64,000 nucleotides of DNA. Origin: Gammaproteobacteria bacterium. Lineage in GTDB: Bacteria > Pseudomonadota > Gammaproteobacteria > SZUA-229. The position numbers and the translations under genes were made by a program. The stretch covers positions 1 to 64,000 of the forward strand of contig JAGXGK010000002.1 in assembly GCA_024636785.1 (NCBI GenBank), read 5' to 3'. Below, piece by piece: positions 29,630 through 39,791 of this stretch; positions within the stretch are counted from its first letter, which is position 1; each line of letters begins with the position of its first letter. The notes beneath the pieces are model-generated. The model had not been told where the DNA came from, ran no database searches, and saw only the letters and a list, made by a program, of their open reading frames with translations.

Positions 29630-30868
29630 TCAATGGGTTGGGTGGGTCCGACCCGGATCGTAATTTAATAAAGATGATGTCTTTGGAATATGTTTTCTAA
29701 CTTTTGGCCAACTATCATACTCACGAGCAAATCTTCCGAACACAACTGATGGTGATATTTCTAGCGACTCTGCAAGCAATCTCATTTCTTTTAATGAGGA
29801 CTCATCATTTATTAACCACTCTTCACTTGGTATCAAAGCCTCTCTAGCCATATCATTAGCTTCTTCTTCCTTTATATCATCTGTTTCCATATGAAGGTCA
29901 TCAATAAACCACTGATAATTTCCATCAAGATGTAATGCGATATGAGCTAATTCGTGCATCAAAGTAAACCAGAAATCGTCCAGACGATCATATCTCAATG
30001 TCAATGCGACCACAGGATTCCCTTTCTGGTTTATGCACACCGCTCCATCTAAGTATGTTTTATCTAAATGTGGTTCAAACACCAAATGAATACCATGCTT
30101 AAACAAATATTCGCGCGCTAATAATGGGCCTTGATCAGACCATGAAGTTTTAGCTAATCGCCTCATAAAGTTTAAATCAATAACACCTTTTTTATACTCA
30201 GAAATAGCTTTCTGAAAACAAGTCTCTTTAAGCACCTTAACTTGCCAGGCTTTCAGTGCATACTCATCTGCTATTTTATTATTATTTACTAAATGCGCTG
30301 ATGTTCTCATCATAGCAGGTTGGATGTCTTCACAACCAGGTACGCTTTTTAGAAATCCTCTCATTAAGTCTTCTGCATAGTTCTTTAACTGTGTTGCTGA
30401 ATAAGCTATGTCGCCAAAATAACCTTTCTTTTGCATATCTCTTAAAGGAAATACTTGCCAGTCCATATCAAGTTCTATTCCCTCTTCAATTTCTTTTGCA
30501 ATTTCTGGTTCTTGTATCAAAATATCTGCGGGTATACCTAAGCCTTTATTAAGCTTACGAATCATATTAATGCTCAATGGTCTTTTGCCATTGAGCACCT
30601 CTGATACTTTTGAAGCTGAGCCGAAATATTCAACCATGTCTTTTCTAGCCAGGCCCTGTTGATCCATACGAAACTTAATTGCTTCTATGGGTTCAGGCTT
30701 ATCTATCGGAAAGTTTTCGTGTTCGTACTGCGCAATCAGAACAGATAGCACTTCGAGCTCATTTTCATCATCAGAGCCAGATGCTGGATCCAGATCCATT
30801 AATGCCATTAAACGAGCCATTGCATTCTCATGCTCTAAATCAGACTTGATCACTTTTAGAGTAGCCAT
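29630..30868 (-). CDS. higA: HigA-type antitoxin fused to an ImmA/IrrE-like metallopeptidase
   Basis: A 412-residue protein from ATG 30868 (MATLKV); GTG-free alternatives include the in-frame ATG at 30874. Residues about 1-60 resemble the leader domain of long HigA antitoxins; about 65-118 form an XRE HTH (EAIKFRMDQQGLARKDMV, SKVSEVLNGKRPLS); about 230-380 form a zinc peptidase of the ImmA/IrrE type with LMHELAHIALHLDG (HExxH) and a downstream EEEANDMAREALIP glutamate. It follows the toxin gene higB within 10 bp. The HTH should bind the operator upstream of higB. A peptidase on an antitoxin suggests induced self-cleavage or cleavage of a partner under stress (inference). Confidence 0.85.
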   Translation of the reverse strand: MATLKVIKSDLEHENAMARLMALMDLDPASGSDDENELEVLSVLIAQYEHENFPIDKPEPIEAIKFRMDQQGLARKDMVEYFGSASKVSEVLNGKRPLSINMIRKLNKGLGIPADILIQEPEIAKEIEEGIELDMDWQVFPLRDMQKKGYFGDIAYSATQLKNYAEDLMRGFLKSVPGCEDIQPAMMRTSAHLVNNNKIADEYALKAWQVKVLKETCFQKAISEYKKGVIDLNFMRRLAKTSWSDQGPLLAREYLFKHGIHLVFEPHLDKTYLDGAVCINQKGNPVVALTLRYDRLDDFWFTLMHELAHIALHLDGNYQWFIDDLHMETDDIKEEEANDMAREALIPSEEWLINDESSLKEMRLLAESLEISPSVVFGRFAREYDSWPKVRKHIPKTSSLLNYDPGRTHPTH

Positions 30869-30878
30869 ATCCATCTCC

Positions 30879-31163
30879 TTAAAACGTCTTTTTGTTGTAC
30901 TCTTTATGGGTTCCTACCCATTCAATAGCAACGATTCCATTCTGGTAACGCACCTTAACTACTAGCCGATAGTGATTACCCTTTATATTAAAAATCACAC
31001 GATTATCCGCCAGAAAGTCAGCCGAACCGTATCTATCTTTAATATCCTGCGGTGTTTTCCAAACCGCTCTCTCTGCTTCAGCATACCAACTATCCAACGC
31101 GGACTTAGCCTGATTATGCTTCTTATAGAACTTCGATAATTCGTCACTTCCTATGACTTTCAT
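30879..31163 (-). CDS. higB: HigB-type mRNA interferase toxin
   Basis: A 94-residue RelE-superfamily protein. The pattern LDSWYAEAERAVWKTPQDIK, then VIFNIKGNHYRLVVKVRY and the end IEWVGTHKEYNK is that of HigB toxins (E. coli-type), which cut mRNA on the ribosome. The toxin precedes the antitoxin, the usual order for hig modules. Ribosome site: AGAGG lies seven bases ahead of the ATG. Its promoter carries two palindromes, described separately. Confidence 0.93.
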   Translation of the reverse strand: MKVIGSDELSKFYKKHNQAKSALDSWYAEAERAVWKTPQDIKDRYGSADFLADNRVIFNIKGNHYRLVVKVRYQNGIVAIEWVGTHKEYNKKTF

Positions 31164-31422: not shown

Positions 31423-31701
31423 TTAACGAAAAACCTCACCCGATTCACGCAACCCCATCTCGAATCCGTGATGATAGGCTTTATGCCACTCCATCACCTG
31501 CTCACCATGATATAAATCTTCGGCATCCAGTTTCAGGTGGTTAATCTTATCCGTATAGCCCCGCGCGTTTAAAAAACTTGCAATACCGTTTGCATATCCC
31601 CGGTTAAACCAGAGCTGAGCATCTGATGGGTTTTCGGAATAATTTTCAGACTCCTCATACAACTGCTCAACCAGTCCCGCTAATTTATCAATAACACTCA
31701 T
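31423..31701 (-). CDS. Small acidic protein of unknown function
   Basis: A 92-residue protein, mostly helical and acidic, with conserved-looking aromatic residues in LWFNRGYANGIASFLNARGY and MEWHKAYHHGFEMGLRESGE. I do not recognise a family. It lies between the higBA module and the membrane Mrr-like nuclease gene. GGGTCAGA-type inverted sequences occur on both sides (about 31383 and 31815), so it may be carried by a small mobile unit. Confidence 0.65.
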   Translation of the reverse strand: MSVIDKLAGLVEQLYEESENYSENPSDAQLWFNRGYANGIASFLNARGYTDKINHLKLDAEDLYHGEQVMEWHKAYHHGFEMGLRESGEVFR

Positions 31702-31837: not shown

Positions 31838-32659
31838 TTAAAAGTTTCTAGTACCTTTGCACTTAGGGTACATAGAACAACCAAAAAAATGATTACCTGC
31901 GTTTGCATCTTGCTTAGCTAAGCGAGGCACCATATCGCTACCACAAACAGGGCAGCTTTCGCTCAGGCTACTAGATGAGTAATGTTTTTCGTATTGAACG
32001 CCTTGAATAAGCTCTGAAAGTACATTGCCATCAATTAAATAAATTGCTTTATCTTTAACGAAGGCTTTAGCATCTTCAGTAAATTCACCCGAGCAAACAA
32101 TATTTACCTCATCGGCATCTTCATCAACAAGCACACCATATAACTCACGTACGGTTTTGACACCCACTTTTTGAGTCTTCCAATGCTTACATTGAACCAG
32201 AATCTTCTGATCATTTTTTGTTAGCACTAAATCAACTCCGCCATCTGGGCCAAAGGGTGTTTCTTTAACCTTAAAGCCTCGCTGACGAAATGCTTCACCT
32301 ACCATCATTTCAAACTCACGCCAGCTCATTGAATCAATAGCCGTTTTACCCTCACGGTTTGAAGCGCGTTTAAGTAAATTTGAACGCTTGAACTGTTGAA
32401 TTGCAGAAGTACCTGCGCCTAGTATAAAAGCGAATGGAAGTAAGTACTGGGCACCCGTAGCTAATGCTTTAATTATAGAACCTGAAACAATTGCTCCAAC
32501 ATTAGCAGCACCACTTGTACTTGCAGTTACCACTTCCTGAGAATTATAGATTGATAATGTCGTATAGATGATAACTGCGAGGCTAAGCCCAGCCCACCAT
32601 GGAAGTTGAGAGCTAATTTCTATAATGTCATTTAAAATATTTTTCTTTCTTCTTGGCAT
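31838..32659 (-). CDS. Membrane-anchored Mrr-like restriction endonuclease with zinc ribbon
   Basis: A 273-residue protein from ATG 32659 (MPRRKKN), with GGAA eight bases upstream; the open frame reaches 32728. Residues about 10-95 hold two membrane segments. Residues about 105-215 form an Mrr catalytic domain: SMSWREFEMMVGEAFRQRGF, then PDGGVDLVL and ILVQCKHWK, giving the D-x(n)-QxK active site. The end is a topoisomerase-type zinc ribbon, CPVCGSDMVPR with FGCSMYPKCKG. Such proteins are probable nucleases that act on foreign or modified DNA near the membrane. It lies directly downstream of the type III operon. Confidence 0.85.
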   Translation of the reverse strand: MPRRKKNILNDIIEISSQLPWWAGLSLAVIIYTTLSIYNSQEVVTASTSGAANVGAIVSGSIIKALATGAQYLLPFAFILGAGTSAIQQFKRSNLLKRASNREGKTAIDSMSWREFEMMVGEAFRQRGFKVKETPFGPDGGVDLVLTKNDQKILVQCKHWKTQKVGVKTVRELYGVLVDEDADEVNIVCSGEFTEDAKAFVKDKAIYLIDGNVLSELIQGVQYEKHYSSSSLSESCPVCGSDMVPRLAKQDANAGNHFFGCSMYPKCKGTRNF

Positions 32660-32806
32660 GTTATTTCCATATTGTAGGTTTATTATCCTAAAGTGCTCTG
32701 ACTCATTAATGTCATCATTGGTTCGCATATATCAAAGCATCATTAAATCGTTTTACATTCTAATTCAAAGATCTATTTACCATCGCAACAGCGTTTTAAT
32801 GGTCAA

Positions 32807-32867
32807 TTAAGGGGTAGAGCCCTTTAAAAGATTTATTATTTCATCTTAAAGGGCTCTGCCCCCTTAA
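32807..32867 (-). terminator. Long hairpin downstream of res
   Basis: The arms TTAAGGGG.AGAGCCCTTTAA and its complement (about 25 bp, one or two mismatches) enclose a 12-nt AT-rich loop. It lies 18 bp after the res stop. There is no clear T-run, so it may act as an mRNA 3' stabiliser or a Rho-assisted stop. Confidence 0.6.
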
Positions 32868-32884: not shown

Positions 32885-35836
32885 TTACCCATTCAACACT
32901 TCACTCAACGAAGTCACTACATCATAATCCACACCTATTGCCTCATAGTGTTTTTGACCACAGGCAATCTTATCGCGCTCTTTATCACGTAGCTCAGCAA
33001 GGTTTCTTGTACTTTTTGTTTCTCTAACCAGATAAAGTTTTTCTTCGTTTTCAGTGACTAGTGCCCAGTCAGGGTTATAGGGTCCGACAGGTGTATCAAC
33101 TTTGTACTGGGGTGGAAGCTTGCAATAGAACTTTACTCTCTCATCATTATCACATGACCTGGCAAATTCTTTTTCCACATCGGAGTCATATTCAACATAA
33201 TCATATAAAGTTTTATCCAGGTTCTGAACTTCATACAGATTACTAAGATATCTAGCAATACCTCTTTCAGCCTCTTCTTCTATTTGATGCATCTCATAGA
33301 CAGAACCAGCAATCTTTTCATACTGAATACCCTTAACAGTAACGCTGTGAAGTTCTCTTTGAATACAATCACTCACCTGGTTTATAAATACCTGAGGATT
33401 AAGAATAAAATCGTCTAATCGCCCAGACTCTTTCAAAATGCGCACAAGTGTATGTCGCGTCAGTTCAGTACTATTCTGCAAATAGGCCAGCAAGTCAGGT
33501 AAATCAATATGACTATTAATTTCACGAACACCACCAGAAATCTGTTGCCCTTCAATTCCAGCCTTGCTCATGCTCTGGCTATATAGCTCAGTGGTAATTC
33601 GCGTTTTATAAATATGCGGCATATCGCTAATAGCCTGCGCAGTAATCCTTGTTAATCTGTCAGTATCAAAGCTGACGCGATAACGTGTGCGCTGGCTGAT
33701 TCGTTGCCACAACTCCATAAACATAGGGTCAAGCGTAACATTCTTGCGTAGCGTCAATGATCGTCTGTCACGCGCATTAACCACGCGATGACTGAATACA
33801 TATTTATTTAACTCATCAACAATCTGTGATCGAATATGCGTCCACTCTTCTGGCAACTGAAGCGTGAAATGTTGATTTTTTGGATCGAACTTATCCATGA
33901 TTTTGCCATCATCATTAATATAATTTTCACTGACTAAAGCATCGTAAATCTGTTTTGATGCTTCCTGTCCTAATGGCACGTATTCTTCCTCTTCAGGTTT
34001 AGCCAGTTTGGAAAATACGGCGAAATCAACTATGCCGAATTTAATACCGTAATCATCTTCAAACTCATTTTGCAGCTGTCGCGCAAAATCATCATACGAT
34101 TCATTGGCAATTACTGTCAGACGATTTACCGTTGCATCATGCACACGCTCACCATGCTGGTTAACCGGTAGCCGTAATCCACGACCTATCTCCTGCCGCT
34201 TTTTATCCTGTGATCTGGTTTCATTCAAGGTGCAAATCTGAAACACATTAGGATTATCCCAACCCTCTTTTAACGCACTGTGCGAGAAAATAAAACGCAG
34301 CGGCTCCACCTGTGAAAGCAACTGCTCTTTATTTCTCATGATTTTTGCAAAGGTATCTTCATCATCCTTAGTTCGACCCGTTGTATCCTTGTCCCTGCCC
34401 TGCTTATCCCGAGAGAAATAACCATCATGCACTTCATTTACATCAAAATTCAGCACGTCTCTATATAAAGGTTTATTGCGAACTTCTTCATAAGCCTGCT
34501 CGAACCATTCGCCGATCTTGCCTAGTGAAGTTGTGCCATCATCGTTATAAATACGATAATTAGCCACCTTATCGATAAAGAACAATGAAAGCACCTTAAT
34601 CCCCTTGCCTCGTACAGCCAGCTCTTTTTTCAGATGCTGTTCGACAGTTTCAAAAACCTGAGCACGCATTAAATCATCACCTAAACCGCCAAGGTCTTCG
34701 CCCAGCCTTACAATCTGGCCATTGCTAAATTCAACGTGCTCGATACCCGGTTCACAACTCACATTAGCGATAATCCAGCCATGTTGATATTCCTGTCGTT
34801 CTTTCGACTTCACAAACAAATCATCGCCGTGTTTAACGGTCAGCGTTTTCTTTTTTGGCCCACCATTTTCATCCACATTAATCTGCAGTTTTGCTTTAAT
34901 ACCATTCTTATTATCCACACCTTTCAAGCAGACAAAAGTCGTATTAAAGCTTTGGTCTTCTACCAGACTGGCGACCTCGATTCGCTTAACCAAACGCATG
35001 TCATAAGCATCAATAGGATTAAGCACATAAAGCAGGTTATAAGGATTTTTATGAGTTGCAGAATAACGCAGCGTACAGAGTGGATTCATGCTCTCCAGTG
35101 CCTTTGCACGTTTAGTTTGCTCTTTGCGTGTATCACCCTCTACTGACTGAGGCTCATCAATAATAAGTATCGGCTGGGCTGCACAAATAAAATCAATCGG
35201 GCGACAACCGGAGAGCCGGTCATTTTCCTGATGCATAATCGCCGTGGCTTTATCAAAGGCCTGAACATTCACCACCATAATCTGAATTTTATTAGTAGTA
35301 GCAAACTGGCGCACCTGCCCCAGCTTTTTAGAATCGTAAACAAAGGCATCAAACGGCACCTGATCATAAAATTCTTTAAAATGCTCGCGCATTATCTGAA
35401 CACTCTTCTGCACACCTTCACGAATCGCCACGCTCGGCACAACAATAATAAACTTGGTAAAACCGTATTTTTTATTCAGCTCAAAAATAGTACGCAAATA
35501 AACATAAGTTTTACCCGTACCTGTTTCCATCTCTACTGAAAAGTGGCGACCCTGCAATGCTTCCTGTTTGGCTACATTATTGGCCACTTGTACTTTATGC
35601 AGATTTTCAAGTAGCAATTCGTCAGTCAAAACCAGTTGATTGGCGACCGCCGCAATATTATTAAATGCTTCATCAGCCAGAGCCAACTGGCTACCACCTG
35701 CCTGCTGGCCTAAAGTGACTGAATAGGTTTCGTTAGCCAGCGGCTGGCCTTCAAACAGATTAACCACCGAAGCAATGGCTTTATGCTGATAATCCAGATT
35801 GCCGTCGAATTTAAACTTCAGGGTAGTCACATTCAT
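32885..35836 (-). CDS. res: Type III restriction enzyme, Res subunit
   Basis: A 983-residue SF2 helicase-nuclease. The N-terminal helicase has Walker A METGTGKTYVYLRT near residue 106, LIIDEPQSVEGD (motif II), YSATHKNPYN (motif III) and QEIGRGLRLPVNQ (motif VI). The C-terminal nuclease has YNPDWALVTENEEKLYLVRE followed by TKST, a PD-x(n)-ExK site. It needs the Mod subunit for DNA binding and cuts about 25 bp away from unmethylated head-to-head sites. Its start overlaps the rhuM stop by 4 bp, so mod-rhuM-res is one translational unit. All motifs are intact. Confidence 0.95.
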   Translation of the reverse strand: MNVTTLKFKFDGNLDYQHKAIASVVNLFEGQPLANETYSVTLGQQAGGSQLALADEAFNNIAAVANQLVLTDELLLENLHKVQVANNVAKQEALQGRHFSVEMETGTGKTYVYLRTIFELNKKYGFTKFIIVVPSVAIREGVQKSVQIMREHFKEFYDQVPFDAFVYDSKKLGQVRQFATTNKIQIMVVNVQAFDKATAIMHQENDRLSGCRPIDFICAAQPILIIDEPQSVEGDTRKEQTKRAKALESMNPLCTLRYSATHKNPYNLLYVLNPIDAYDMRLVKRIEVASLVEDQSFNTTFVCLKGVDNKNGIKAKLQINVDENGGPKKKTLTVKHGDDLFVKSKERQEYQHGWIIANVSCEPGIEHVEFSNGQIVRLGEDLGGLGDDLMRAQVFETVEQHLKKELAVRGKGIKVLSLFFIDKVANYRIYNDDGTTSLGKIGEWFEQAYEEVRNKPLYRDVLNFDVNEVHDGYFSRDKQGRDKDTTGRTKDDEDTFAKIMRNKEQLLSQVEPLRFIFSHSALKEGWDNPNVFQICTLNETRSQDKKRQEIGRGLRLPVNQHGERVHDATVNRLTVIANESYDDFARQLQNEFEDDYGIKFGIVDFAVFSKLAKPEEEEYVPLGQEASKQIYDALVSENYINDDGKIMDKFDPKNQHFTLQLPEEWTHIRSQIVDELNKYVFSHRVVNARDRRSLTLRKNVTLDPMFMELWQRISQRTRYRVSFDTDRLTRITAQAISDMPHIYKTRITTELYSQSMSKAGIEGQQISGGVREINSHIDLPDLLAYLQNSTELTRHTLVRILKESGRLDDFILNPQVFINQVSDCIQRELHSVTVKGIQYEKIAGSVYEMHQIEEEAERGIARYLSNLYEVQNLDKTLYDYVEYDSDVEKEFARSCDNDERVKFYCKLPPQYKVDTPVGPYNPDWALVTENEEKLYLVRETKSTRNLAELRDKERDKIACGQKHYEAIGVDYDVVTSLSEVLNG

Positions 35837-36879
35837 TTCTCTGTCTTCTTTTTTGATTGGCTTTTGTTAGCGACCAGATGTGACTCCAGCTTTTCCAGTG
35901 TCTCAATATCTTCCCGTTCCACCTGCGCCGCCTCATCATGCAAGCGTTGCTGCTGAAATTTATCGTACTCCGACTCTGCCAGTTCTTTGGCGATTTGATG
36001 CGAGACCCGCCCGGCATGATCAAGAATATCGCGATCATTCAAACTTAAAAAACCATCCAGCTTTTTAAACCAGTCCTGCATATTCATCGGAATACGGCGC
36101 ATCGCCTGGCCTTCAGCAAAAATCAGATACTGCTCGACCAGATTATTCAGGGTTTTTAACTCGTCTTCTGTCAGATAATTTTTAGCCGTAGCCACATCCT
36201 GTTTACGCACCTTGCTGCCACGCCAGTTGGTCAGCCCCATATTTTCTTTATCGCTATCCGCCCGCTGGTGAATAATCTCCGCCGCGGTATGCCCGGTAAT
36301 CGCCCAATGCATCTTGTTCTGTACGGTTTTGAAAAAATCGATGCTAATTTCCTGCGTCGGGTCATAATCGACACTGGTGGCATAAATATCGGTAATTTTT
36401 CGATAAAAGCGTTTCTCGGATGTGCGGATATCCTGAATGCGCCGCAGCAGCTCATCGAAATAATCAAAAGGCTGATCGGGGTTCTTCAGACGCTCATCAT
36501 CCATAACAAAACCCTTGACCACAAACTCCTTCAACTGACGCGTTGCCCACTGACGAAAACGCGTTGCAGTATGTGATTTCACTCGATAACCGACTGAAAT
36601 AATCGCATCCAAATTGTAATGCTTCAGGCTGCGACGCACCTCACGCGACCCTTCCTGACGAACTACTAAGAAATCCTTAGTAGTTGCTAACTGCTCTAAC
36701 TCCTTCTCCTCAAAGATATTTTTCAGGTGCATGCCAATATTTTCCGGTGTTGTCTGAAACAGATCCGCCATCAACTTCTGCGATAACCACACCGTCTCAC
36801 CAGACAACCGTACTTCCAGCCGGGTCTCACCCAACTCGGATTGATAAATAAGAAACTCCCCGAATTTAGCCTCACTCAC
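35833..36879 (-). CDS. RhuM family protein located within the type III operon
   Basis: A 348-residue soluble protein of the virulence_RhuM family. The start, GEFLIYQSELGETRLEVRL, then ETVWLSQKLMADLFQTT and RRSLKHYNLDAIISVGYRVK, are highly typical; the C-terminal third is helical and charged. RhuM was first noted in a Salmonella pathogenicity island; relatives are often found beside restriction and toxin-antitoxin genes, but no biochemical role is established. Here it is 2 bp after mod and overlaps res by 4 bp, so it must be made with the enzyme. The N-terminal part resembles phage antirepressor or KilA-N-type DNA-binding domains. Confidence 0.88.
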   Translation of the reverse strand: MSEAKFGEFLIYQSELGETRLEVRLSGETVWLSQKLMADLFQTTPENIGMHLKNIFEEKELEQLATTKDFLVVRQEGSREVRRSLKHYNLDAIISVGYRVKSHTATRFRQWATRQLKEFVVKGFVMDDERLKNPDQPFDYFDELLRRIQDIRTSEKRFYRKITDIYATSVDYDPTQEISIDFFKTVQNKMHWAITGHTAAEIIHQRADSDKENMGLTNWRGSKVRKQDVATAKNYLTEDELKTLNNLVEQYLIFAEGQAMRRIPMNMQDWFKKLDGFLSLNDRDILDHAGRVSHQIAKELAESEYDKFQQQRLHDEAAQVEREDIETLEKLESHLVANKSQSKKKTEK

Positions 36880-36881
36880 GC

Positions 36882-38822
36882 CTAAACCACCTTAAAGACC
36901 ATTTCGGCCTCAGCATTCTGCGCACGGGATTTGAAAGTCTGCACCGCATTCGCCTTAAGCTGGTCATTACCGTTAAAACCTTTATCCAGACAGATAAACT
37001 GCATTGGCTCAAGTTCCGCCACCGCATCAATCAACTCAGCCGTCAGTTCATCTTCAAGACAAATTAGCAAAGCACCCTCGTCGATAGAAAACACCGACTT
37101 GCCCGCCAGATCATGTGTGTCAATTTTAGACGTTGGCACAAACCCCGCCTTGAGCAACAGCTCATAAAGAATTTCTTCCTGCGTGGCATAAGGATCGATG
37201 TGATCAGTATGCAACTCCAGTTGTTCGCCAAGTTGTTCGGCGTTTATTTCAGCGGAGGGGGCTTGCCATTGTTTGAAGTTTGACTTGTCTAGTTTTAGGA
37301 CTTTAAAGCCCAGGTCTGAATCGGCTTTTCCTTGCAGATCTAGTTGGGTTTCGTTTTGTTCTCGGATTTTTTTTGCGGCGCGGCGAATGCGTTCTTTGCC
37401 GATGTCTGCGATGGTGCTTAAATTTTTCAACTCCGTTACAGTCTTTGTGTCGATAGGCTCAGGAAGTTGAACCATTATAAACTTGCTTCTTGCACCGGCA
37501 GAAAAATTATATTCAAGAACAGAGTGCGCTGTTGATGCTGACCCCGCAAAGAAATCTAGCACTATCCCATCCTCATCTGTTCCTTGTTGAATTAAAAGCT
37601 TCAACAATGAAACAGGTTTAGGAAAATCAAATATGTTTTCACCCAATAACTCTCTGACTTCTCTCGTCCCATTAGTGGTATATCCAACAATTTCATTTTT
37701 TAGAACTGTAGAGAAACCAGTGACATTACTTTTTAAATCATTAATAAATTTTTTCTCTCTTGGTCTACCTTCTGGTCGGGCTGGAAACAAAACTCTTCCT
37801 TCTTCAATCATTTTTTCCACAACACTTCTACTCTTCGACCATCCTCTGTTAGGGTTAGGTGGATAGGAAATATTGCTACTAGGATCTACAATATCGTAAT
37901 GAAGATTTGGTCGCTGTTCTTTATTAGCAAGTCCAGAAAGATCAATACTTGCCCAATCTCCACGTGAATCATTATCTGGATTTTTATACTTAGTAACATC
38001 AATTGAAACACCTTTTAGTTTCAATTGATTACTTCTTTGATAGGCAATTACATACTCGTGATCAGCCGAAACATTGTTTTGATTCCTATTATCTGCATTA
38101 TGTCTTCTTTTCCAAATAAATTGTCCTAGCAAATTCTCCTCCCCAAATATCTCATCACACATCCTTCTCAAATTCTCTACTTCATTATCATCAATAGAGA
38201 TAAATATAACCCCATCCTCCTTCAACAAATTCCTTGCCAAATACAACCTCGGATACATCATATTCAACCACTTAGTATGAAAGCGTCCTTCGGTAGCAGT
38301 ATTAGTAGCGAACTTCTTGCCTTCATCATCCACTAACCCTGCATAGGCCAAATAGGTTTCCAGATTCTCTGAATATTTGTCGGGGTAGATGAATTCTTTA
38401 CCGGTGTTGTACGGCGGGTCGATGTAGATCATCTTCACTTTGCCGTAGTAACTTTTTTGCAGCAGTTTGAGTACTTCTAAATTATCGCCCTCGATGAACA
38501 GGTTTTCTGTGTTGTCGAAATCAACCGATTCTTCGCGGCAGGGTTTGAGCGTTGCGCGGCTGGGTTGTTGTATTAGTTTCATGCAATCGCGTTTGCCCGG
38601 CCATTCCATGCCATAGCGTTCGCGCTTGCCGTTATAAACATCACTAAACGAACCTAACTCTGCTTTGAGTTTTTCAAAGTCGATGGTCTCAATTACTTCG
38701 CCGTCTTTATTAGTGGTTTCGGTAAAGACGGCGGGAAAGAGTTGTTTTAACTCCTGCTTGCGCTGTTCGCTGATGTCCAGCGATTCACCTGTCATTTCGA
38801 TGTTCAATTCTTTTTCACTCAT
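36882..38822 (-). CDS. mod: Type III restriction system adenine methyltransferase, Mod subunit
   Basis: A 646-residue N6-adenine methyltransferase. The catalytic motif IDPPYNTGKEF (DPPY) lies near residue 135 and the AdoMet motif VLDFFAGSASTAHSV near 425, the order of the beta class that includes Mod. Between them (about residues 235-420) is the target-recognition region, which is visibly AT-richer than the two ends and reads like an exchanged block. The C-terminal part is a helical Res-binding region. It is the first gene of the operon, 60 bp after mrr; the spacer has no obvious terminator. Confidence 0.95.
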   Translation of the reverse strand: MSEKELNIEMTGESLDISEQRKQELKQLFPAVFTETTNKDGEVIETIDFEKLKAELGSFSDVYNGKRERYGMEWPGKRDCMKLIQQPSRATLKPCREESVDFDNTENLFIEGDNLEVLKLLQKSYYGKVKMIYIDPPYNTGKEFIYPDKYSENLETYLAYAGLVDDEGKKFATNTATEGRFHTKWLNMMYPRLYLARNLLKEDGVIFISIDDNEVENLRRMCDEIFGEENLLGQFIWKRRHNADNRNQNNVSADHEYVIAYQRSNQLKLKGVSIDVTKYKNPDNDSRGDWASIDLSGLANKEQRPNLHYDIVDPSSNISYPPNPNRGWSKSRSVVEKMIEEGRVLFPARPEGRPREKKFINDLKSNVTGFSTVLKNEIVGYTTNGTREVRELLGENIFDFPKPVSLLKLLIQQGTDEDGIVLDFFAGSASTAHSVLEYNFSAGARSKFIMVQLPEPIDTKTVTELKNLSTIADIGKERIRRAAKKIREQNETQLDLQGKADSDLGFKVLKLDKSNFKQWQAPSAEINAEQLGEQLELHTDHIDPYATQEEILYELLLKAGFVPTSKIDTHDLAGKSVFSIDEGALLICLEDELTAELIDAVAELEPMQFICLDKGFNGNDQLKANAVQTFKSRAQNAEAEMVFKVV

Positions 38823-38882: not shown

Positions 38883-39791
38883 CTACATATCAGTAAAATA
38901 ATCACTGTCCAGATGTTTTACTTCGTATATTTCTTTGCGTGTTACGCCAAGATTGTGTTCAATCATCAGCTGTGCCAGTTGCTTGCCATCAAGTAGCACT
39001 ACTTTTATATCCAGATTATTCACTGCTTCTCTTGCACCTATGGAATAGTCGGAGGTGGTGATGAACACGCCTTTGCGGGCACGATTGCGAGTGAGACTAC
39101 CGATGAATTTGTCAATTTCAGGTCGGTGTACGATGTTTTGCCAGCGTTTGGCCTGTAGGTAGATGGTGTCCAGACCTAAACGGTCTTCTTTTATGATGCC
39201 GTCGATGCCGTCGTCACTAGTAGCTTGTGTTGCCTGCCCTGCTTCTTTGCGGGAACCGCCATAACCGATGGCCAGCATAAGATCAACGACCAGTTGCTCA
39301 AAAAAGACGGGGCTGGCTTTGCGTATATTTTCAAGAATTTCATCGGCCAGTGTTTGGTTTAATTGCTGCCATGCCTGGTCTATTTGTTCGTCCGGGGTGA
39401 TATCACCTTGAGTATTTACGTTTTCAGCTATTTGAGTCTCTGGTGTATTTGGCGCTGTAAACTCCCGAAAGCTTTCGTATTGCCTGAGAAATGCGGCATT
39501 AATTTTATCGGGATTGGTGGCCAGAACTTCTCGACCTATGTTGCTGATCTGAAAATAAGCCCGGCGTGGTATTTCCAGCAGACCTGCCTTAGCCAGATAG
39601 GTTTTCGCCCAACCAACGCGGTTATCGAAAATCGGCTGCTTACCACTGGGCAGTAACTCTCTGCGTTCTTCAGCAGTAAGTTGAAACTGTGTTGCCAGCG
39701 TATTTATCGCTTCACGATAGGCGTGTTCATGACCATCACTTGCTAGTGTCAGCAATGGGAGCATAAGAGACTGATAATCTGGTATGGCCAT
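38883..39791 (-). CDS. mrr: Mrr restriction endonuclease (modified-DNA specific)
   Basis: A 302-residue protein, close in length and layout to E. coli Mrr (304). The N-terminal winged-helix region (LLPSGKQPIFDNRVGWAKTY) recognises DNA; the C-terminal Mrr_cat domain includes FEQLVVDLMLAIGYGG, DDGIDGIIKEDRLGLD and IYLQAKRWQ, giving the D-QxK nuclease site, and ends with HLDSDYF. Mrr cuts DNA carrying foreign methylation. It is 60 bp upstream of mod and on the same strand, so it may be the leading gene of the defence operon; but it could restrict hosts carrying methylation it does not tolerate, so compatibility with Mod is implied. Confidence 0.93.
   Translation of the reverse strand: MAIPDYQSLMLPLLTLASDGHEHAYREAINTLATQFQLTAEERRELLPSGKQPIFDNRVGWAKTYLAKAGLLEIPRRAYFQISNIGREVLATNPDKINAAFLRQYESFREFTAPNTPETQIAENVNTQGDITPDEQIDQAWQQLNQTLADEILENIRKASPVFFEQLVVDLMLAIGYGGSRKEAGQATQATSDDGIDGIIKEDRLGLDTIYLQAKRWQNIVHRPEIDKFIGSLTRNRARKGVFITTSDYSIGAREAVNNLDIKVVLLDGKQLAQLMIEHNLGVTRKEIYEVKHLDSDYFTDM

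Follow-up and report, generated by a model that had tools for sequence, protein, structure and literature searches.

The gap between mod and res of type III restriction-modification (R-M) operons is a recurrent slot for unrelated candidate antiviral genes, and in the gammaproteobacterial DNA stretch of 64,000 nucleotides analyzed here (the window) this slot holds rhuM. We lean towards the reading that RhuM is an interchangeable, self-contained candidate defense gene inserted between mod and res of an EcoP15I-like operon, where it would be a stand-alone second-line effector with a DNA-binding-like sensor. An odd three-gene operon thereby becomes an instance of a general rule, in which type III operons offer a socket for second-line defense candidates between mod and res, and every gene found there is consequently a prioritized antiviral candidate.

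The operon is encoded on the minus strand in the order mod, rhuM and res (Table 1). The gap between mod and rhuM is 2 bp and the overlap between rhuM and res is 4 bp (ATGA), so that the tight three-gene operon of the original prediction is borne out by the coordinates. The inverted repeat directly 3' of res is a possible operon terminator. The same gene order, with homology in all three genes, was observed in a genome of the same genus (L169) and in a Chromatiales metagenome-assembled genome (MAG) (L031), and it was found with distant mod and res genes at L133, L135, L136, L139, and L160, where the 4-bp overlap was often seen again. Because of this recurrence, the arrangement is neither chance nor a contig artifact.

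Table 1. Features of the mod-rhuM-res operon and of the adjacent genes (window positions)
Feature	Positions	Strand	Description
PD-Lambda-2 A/B pair	29630..31163	-	HigB-like toxin and M78/ImmA-like partner; downstream of the restriction cluster
Second Mrr_cat protein	31838..32728	-	With Top1 zinc ribbon; downstream of res
Inverted repeat	32811..32862	none	Directly 3' of res; 17-nt arms, 18-nt loop
res	32885..35836	-	983 aa, type III restriction subunit; GTGKT 106, IDEP 226, PDW..ETK 922
rhuM	35833..36879	-	GTG start, 348 aa; PF13310, PADLOC PDC-S05
RhuM C-terminal helical domain	35944..36471	-	Residues 137-312
RhuM N-terminal domain	36472..36879	-	Residues 1-136; Bro-N/KilA-N-like by fold; common to RhuM-N::Fic/Doc fusions
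Exchangeable beta-hairpin of RhuM	36616..36699	-	Residues ~61-88; long allele EGxRxVxR in the window
mod	36882..38822	-	646 aa, beta-class DNA methyltransferase of type III; motifs DPPY (residue 135) and FAGS (residue 425)
Mod variable target-recognition region	37323..38180	-	Residues ~215-500, window against same-genus L169
mrr (Mrr_N + Mrr_cat)	38883..39791	-	Type IV-like restriction gene, 60 bp upstream of mod

The products of mod and res matched PADLOC MTase_III (687 bits) and REase_III (1003 bits), respectively, and both matched EcoP15I (4zcf) by sequence; the Mod structure 6k0w was matched as well. Their motifs are intact: Mod is a beta-class enzyme with DPPY, FxGxG, and a variable recognition region, and Res combines the SF2 helicase motifs (Walker A and the DEAH-like IDEP) with a PD-ExK nuclease. 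Judged by these motifs, the pair is an EcoP15I-like type III R-M system, for which ATP-dependent cleavage at head-to-head sites is predicted. Between the window and L169, the target-recognition region of Mod has been replaced (10 to 50% identity, with flanks of ~95%). Together with the two Mrr genes and PD-Lambda-2, the operon forms a compact defense island at ~29.6 to 39.8 kb. The N-terminal stretch of the downstream Mrr_cat protein contains hydrophobic segments, and this protein is possibly a membrane-linked Mrr. A 92-aa open reading frame (ORF) at 31423-31701, between the Mrr-like and HigB genes, had no family match.

To quantify the slot, Res loci were chosen regardless of RhuM. The mod-res gap exceeded 400 bp in 14 of 33 pairs from Pseudomonadota, with 18 of the 33 being tight and free of cargo, and in 32 of 36 pairs from Bacteroidota, which came from an independent sample of 395 genomes. 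Cargo between mod and res is hence the rule in Bacteroidota and common in Pseudomonadota. In the control, coupled same-strand ORFs were also frequent directly upstream and downstream of the operon; enrichment of the slot over these flanks was clear only in Bacteroidota, and the control is weak in Pseudomonadota. This quantification of the type III mod-res slot is new here.

The gap contents, some of which were named by similarity to one scanned member, included Fic/SoFic proteins (L131, L145, L159, L281, L282, and L285), a Doc protein with its PDC-M59A partner (PDC-M59A/B; L133, L134, L267, L278-L280, L283, and L284), HEPN with MNT (L140, L160, and L162), PIN/PDC-S70 (L162), Bro-N PDC-S13 (L142 and L293), SLFN-AlbA proteins (L152, L154, L270, L271, and L289), YhcG-type nucleases/PDC-S02 (L255-L258, L260, and others), pairs of an ABC-ATPase and DUF4276 HEC-01 (L276 and L286), an Abi_2/AbiD protein (L274), and a GmrSD/HEC-06 protein (L290). 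RhuM occupied the gap in the window and at L133, L135, L136, L139, and L160, with remnants at L137 and L140. RhuM is thus a whole additional gene flanked by the two core genes, and other candidates can take its position. Two cargo genes without a family match, L158:9577-10278 (Pfam and PADLOC) and L275:4472-5176 (PADLOC only), are unnamed defense candidates. At L281, L282, and L285, a truncated PDC-M59A gene (~153 to 161 aa) precedes Fic where relatives have M59A and Doc, which looks like one cargo replaced by another. At L132, mod is split by a transposase gene in an otherwise cargo-free type III system.

RhuM loci were collected with their flanks from the 80 closest in GTDB genomes and from 398 sampled Pseudomonadota genomes (94 with a match), and their neighbors were called with profiles built from the window Mod and Res and from HsdRMS of E. 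coli K-12. By context, the 152 full-length RhuM proteins fell into 61 in type I systems, 14 with an adjoining type III Mod or Res (a few of these calls come from distant Mod-like enzymes), 52 where these Mod, Res, and HsdRMS profiles detected no R-M genes, and 25 at a contig edge. The type III label changed 10 times on the RhuM tree, with at least 8 changes forced by strongly supported branches. The window RhuM groups with the type III copies of L169 and L031 within a clade where type I copies are found too, and the intact type III-embedded RhuM of the sample come mainly from families f44 and f48 and from that of the window. A conserved partner or antitoxin was sought at 48 RhuM loci lacking an R-M call, and no neighbor recurred; as these neighbors have nothing in common, no obligatory partner of RhuM was found, and the family lacks the conserved adjacent antitoxin gene of a type II toxin-antitoxin system. 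RhuM is a cargo gene that switches among type I operons, type III operons, and solitary positions, and it is not tied to type III restriction. The mod-rhuM-res order does recur among genomes, but RhuM resides mostly in type I operons, and for about a third of its loci no R-M operon was detected with these profiles. Phages carry homologues too (phage records H53-H69): in many Streptococcus satellite phages of the Javan series the homologue is located close to one end, and Wolbachia phage WO also has one.

The assignment to the RhuM family is based on a full-length match to PF13310 (387 bits, against a curated cutoff of 33.7) and on a match of 478 bits to PADLOC PDC-S05, whereas searches of NCBIfam and PHROGs gave no match. 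Sequence searches of the Protein Data Bank (PDB) returned chance-level matches only, among them ribosomal S9 and a protein of the Ntox15 type (E 0.02 to 0.045). The AlphaFold model of full-length RhuM had a pTM of 0.50, and its domain orientation was therefore disregarded. For the modeled N-domain, the best viral structure matches were Bro-N, KilA-N, and repressor-type proteins, and we regard this domain as Bro-N-like and DNA-binding-like on the strength of the model. It shares 54% identity with the N-domain of Fic/Doc fusions (hhalign probability 100). All 20 of the RhuM-N-only matches fetched were fusions to Fic that contain an HxFxDGN-type motif; some RhuM-N::Fic genes, several in number, lie inside type I operons. 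That RhuM has a Bro-N-like N-domain in common with these fusions is new here. Fusions of this domain with Fic/Doc (PDC-S23) were observed at L123, L122, L187, and L230-L249, often in type I operons and with both of the hairpin alleles described below.

The C-domain, modeled separately with a pTM of 0.73, contains the invariant residues R152, S154, E155, Q187, N188, T198, E201, K233, N234, and Y235, and the PDB fold search with this model found no solved relative. A Fic-like fold was considered and rejected, given an hhalign profile-profile probability of 0.2 and the lack of a PDB fold match; the HxFxDGNxR motif is absent, and RhuM is not a member of Fic/Doc. The C-domain is not detectably Fic, yet it occupies the place of Fic in the fusion architecture. 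The label "toxin" for RhuM consequently rests on context.

The most original element of the finding is a hairpin in the N-domain, of which a long and a short version are exchanged. The RhuM of L169 carries the short allele TTAADGKxY and is ~90% identical to that of the window outside residues 61-90, a predicted beta-hairpin over which identity is 27%. The DNA identity collapses at the same place (27 to 43%), so the hairpin is a replaced segment, and a compensated frameshift was rejected. Across the family, hairpin identity can be 36% in RhuM pairs with 94% identity in the rest of the protein, and among 1050 close pairs, 665 have their least conserved stretch of 28 residues beginning at residues 35-62, so that it covers the hairpin. 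Among the 152 full-length proteins, 93 carry the long and 42 the short allele, and on a tree built without the hairpin columns the label changes 25 times, at least 17 of these being forced by strongly supported branches. Long alleles outnumbered short ones to a similar extent in all four groups: 34:18 for type I, 10:4 for type III, 35:12 without a call, and 12:5 for the Fic fusions. Hairpin switching is independent of R-M type, which makes a particular R-M subunit an unlikely target of the hairpin. We tentatively consider, as a possibility short of our favored reading, that the N-domain is a common sensor platform combined with a RhuM-C or Fic effector, in type I or type III operons or alone, whose specificity would come from a hairpin cassette exchanged by recombination, as R-M systems swap target-recognition domains. 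The polymorphism provides a direct handle on the biochemistry of the widespread RhuM family.

A Bro-N/KilA-N-like N-domain that matches phage repressor and antirepressor folds, a variable hairpin that could represent operator specificity, and the coupling of rhuM within the operon would all suit an antirepressor-like DNA-binding regulator that sets the expression of the host operon. We nevertheless judge such a role unlikely, since the C-domain is large and strongly conserved with many invariant polar residues, the same N-domain is fused to Fic, RhuM occurs without R-M genes, rhuM takes the middle position of the operon, which is not typical of control genes, and the hairpin class does not follow the R-M type.

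The dN/dS values of rhuM were ~0.05 against L031 and ~0.2 against L169, and the gene is under strong purifying selection. This argues against a passenger or addiction gene that uses the operon for expression and persistence and has no antiviral role, as do the missing antitoxin neighbor and the presence in the same slot of genes like HEC-06 and AbiD, which come from antiviral families that have been tested. A passenger, which we consider improbable all the same, would fit the occurrence of RhuM on its own and on mobile elements, satellite phages and plasmids among them, and the toxin-antitoxin modules found among the other slot genes.

The relationship between rhuM and res was found to be loose in both directions. 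At L137 and L140, res is intact and rhuM is broken, whereas at L169 mod and rhuM are intact and res, 92% identical to that of the window, is interrupted by a frameshift and by two stop codons in frame, TAA and TGA (L169 is a draft MAG, and an assembly error, although possible, would need three events). These loci indicate that rhuM and res are dispensable to each other. The main idea of the original prediction, an accessory Mod-Res subunit that alters restriction targeting or activity, is in our opinion the least probable of all, because, despite tight junctions with both mod and res that are seen again in unrelated loci, more than half of the sampled Pseudomonadota systems lack cargo, different genes fill the same slot, members of the same RhuM clade also accompany type I subunits, whose architecture is unrelated, and EcoP15I needs no component besides Mod and Res (4zcf). 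A role specific to the control or targeting of type III restriction is likewise at odds with the greater frequency of the family in type I operons, its occurrence outside any detected R-M operon, and the broken partners just described.

As a self-contained cargo gene, RhuM need not touch Mod or Res. Through translational coupling, the R-M promoter would supply a co-expressed second defense layer; the N-domain may sense nucleic acid or a phage factor via the variable hairpin, and the conserved helical C-domain may be the effector, in the place held by Fic/Doc in the fusions. This effector would act when restriction is evaded. The alternative suggestion in the original prediction, an abortive-infection-type add-on, is in keeping with this scheme, and we retain it as a suggestion.

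The class to which this arrangement belongs is already known, as the embedding of defense genes in immune operons has been published and RhuM is listed by PADLOC. The system had been predicted to be little described, which proved half true: besides its PADLOC entry, RhuM was proposed in 2013 as a toxin of R-M neighborhoods, with RhuM-DOC fusions noted, according to the portions of Anantharaman et al. (PMC3710099) consulted. Our literature search, which did not cover Payne et al. 2024, found no paper combining RhuM with type III restriction and none describing the mod-res gap as a slot. PDC-S05 is a guilt-by-embedding candidate of Payne et al. 2024, as cited in PMC12988326 and PMC12255303; PDC candidates are mostly unvalidated products of that approach (PMC12988326). 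It is the same family as the window RhuM, likewise embedded in an immune operon and of candidate status, and the excerpts found on it mention neither the mod-res slot nor the exchangeable hairpin. The neighborhoods of PMC3710099, as far as its consulted portions go, also place the family beside R-M genes and include the fusion and the proposed toxin role; theirs feature PrrC-like proteins, and the type III gap and the hairpin alleles are added here.

Embedded defense genes work in type I operons (PMC11411939; PMC12255303). TgvAB of the Vibrio cholerae type I R-M operon consists of GmrSD-like defense genes inside an R-M operon that were experimentally shown to be active independently of HsdR (PMC11411939), whereas the window has a type III host operon and RhuM. 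A two-gene ADP-ribosylation toxin-antitoxin is also a toxin-type defense module inside a type I R-M operon, whereas RhuM has no partner gene. EcoP15I (4zcf) is homologous to the window Mod and Res over most of their length and consists of Mod and Res only, whereas the operon of the window adds rhuM as a third gene.
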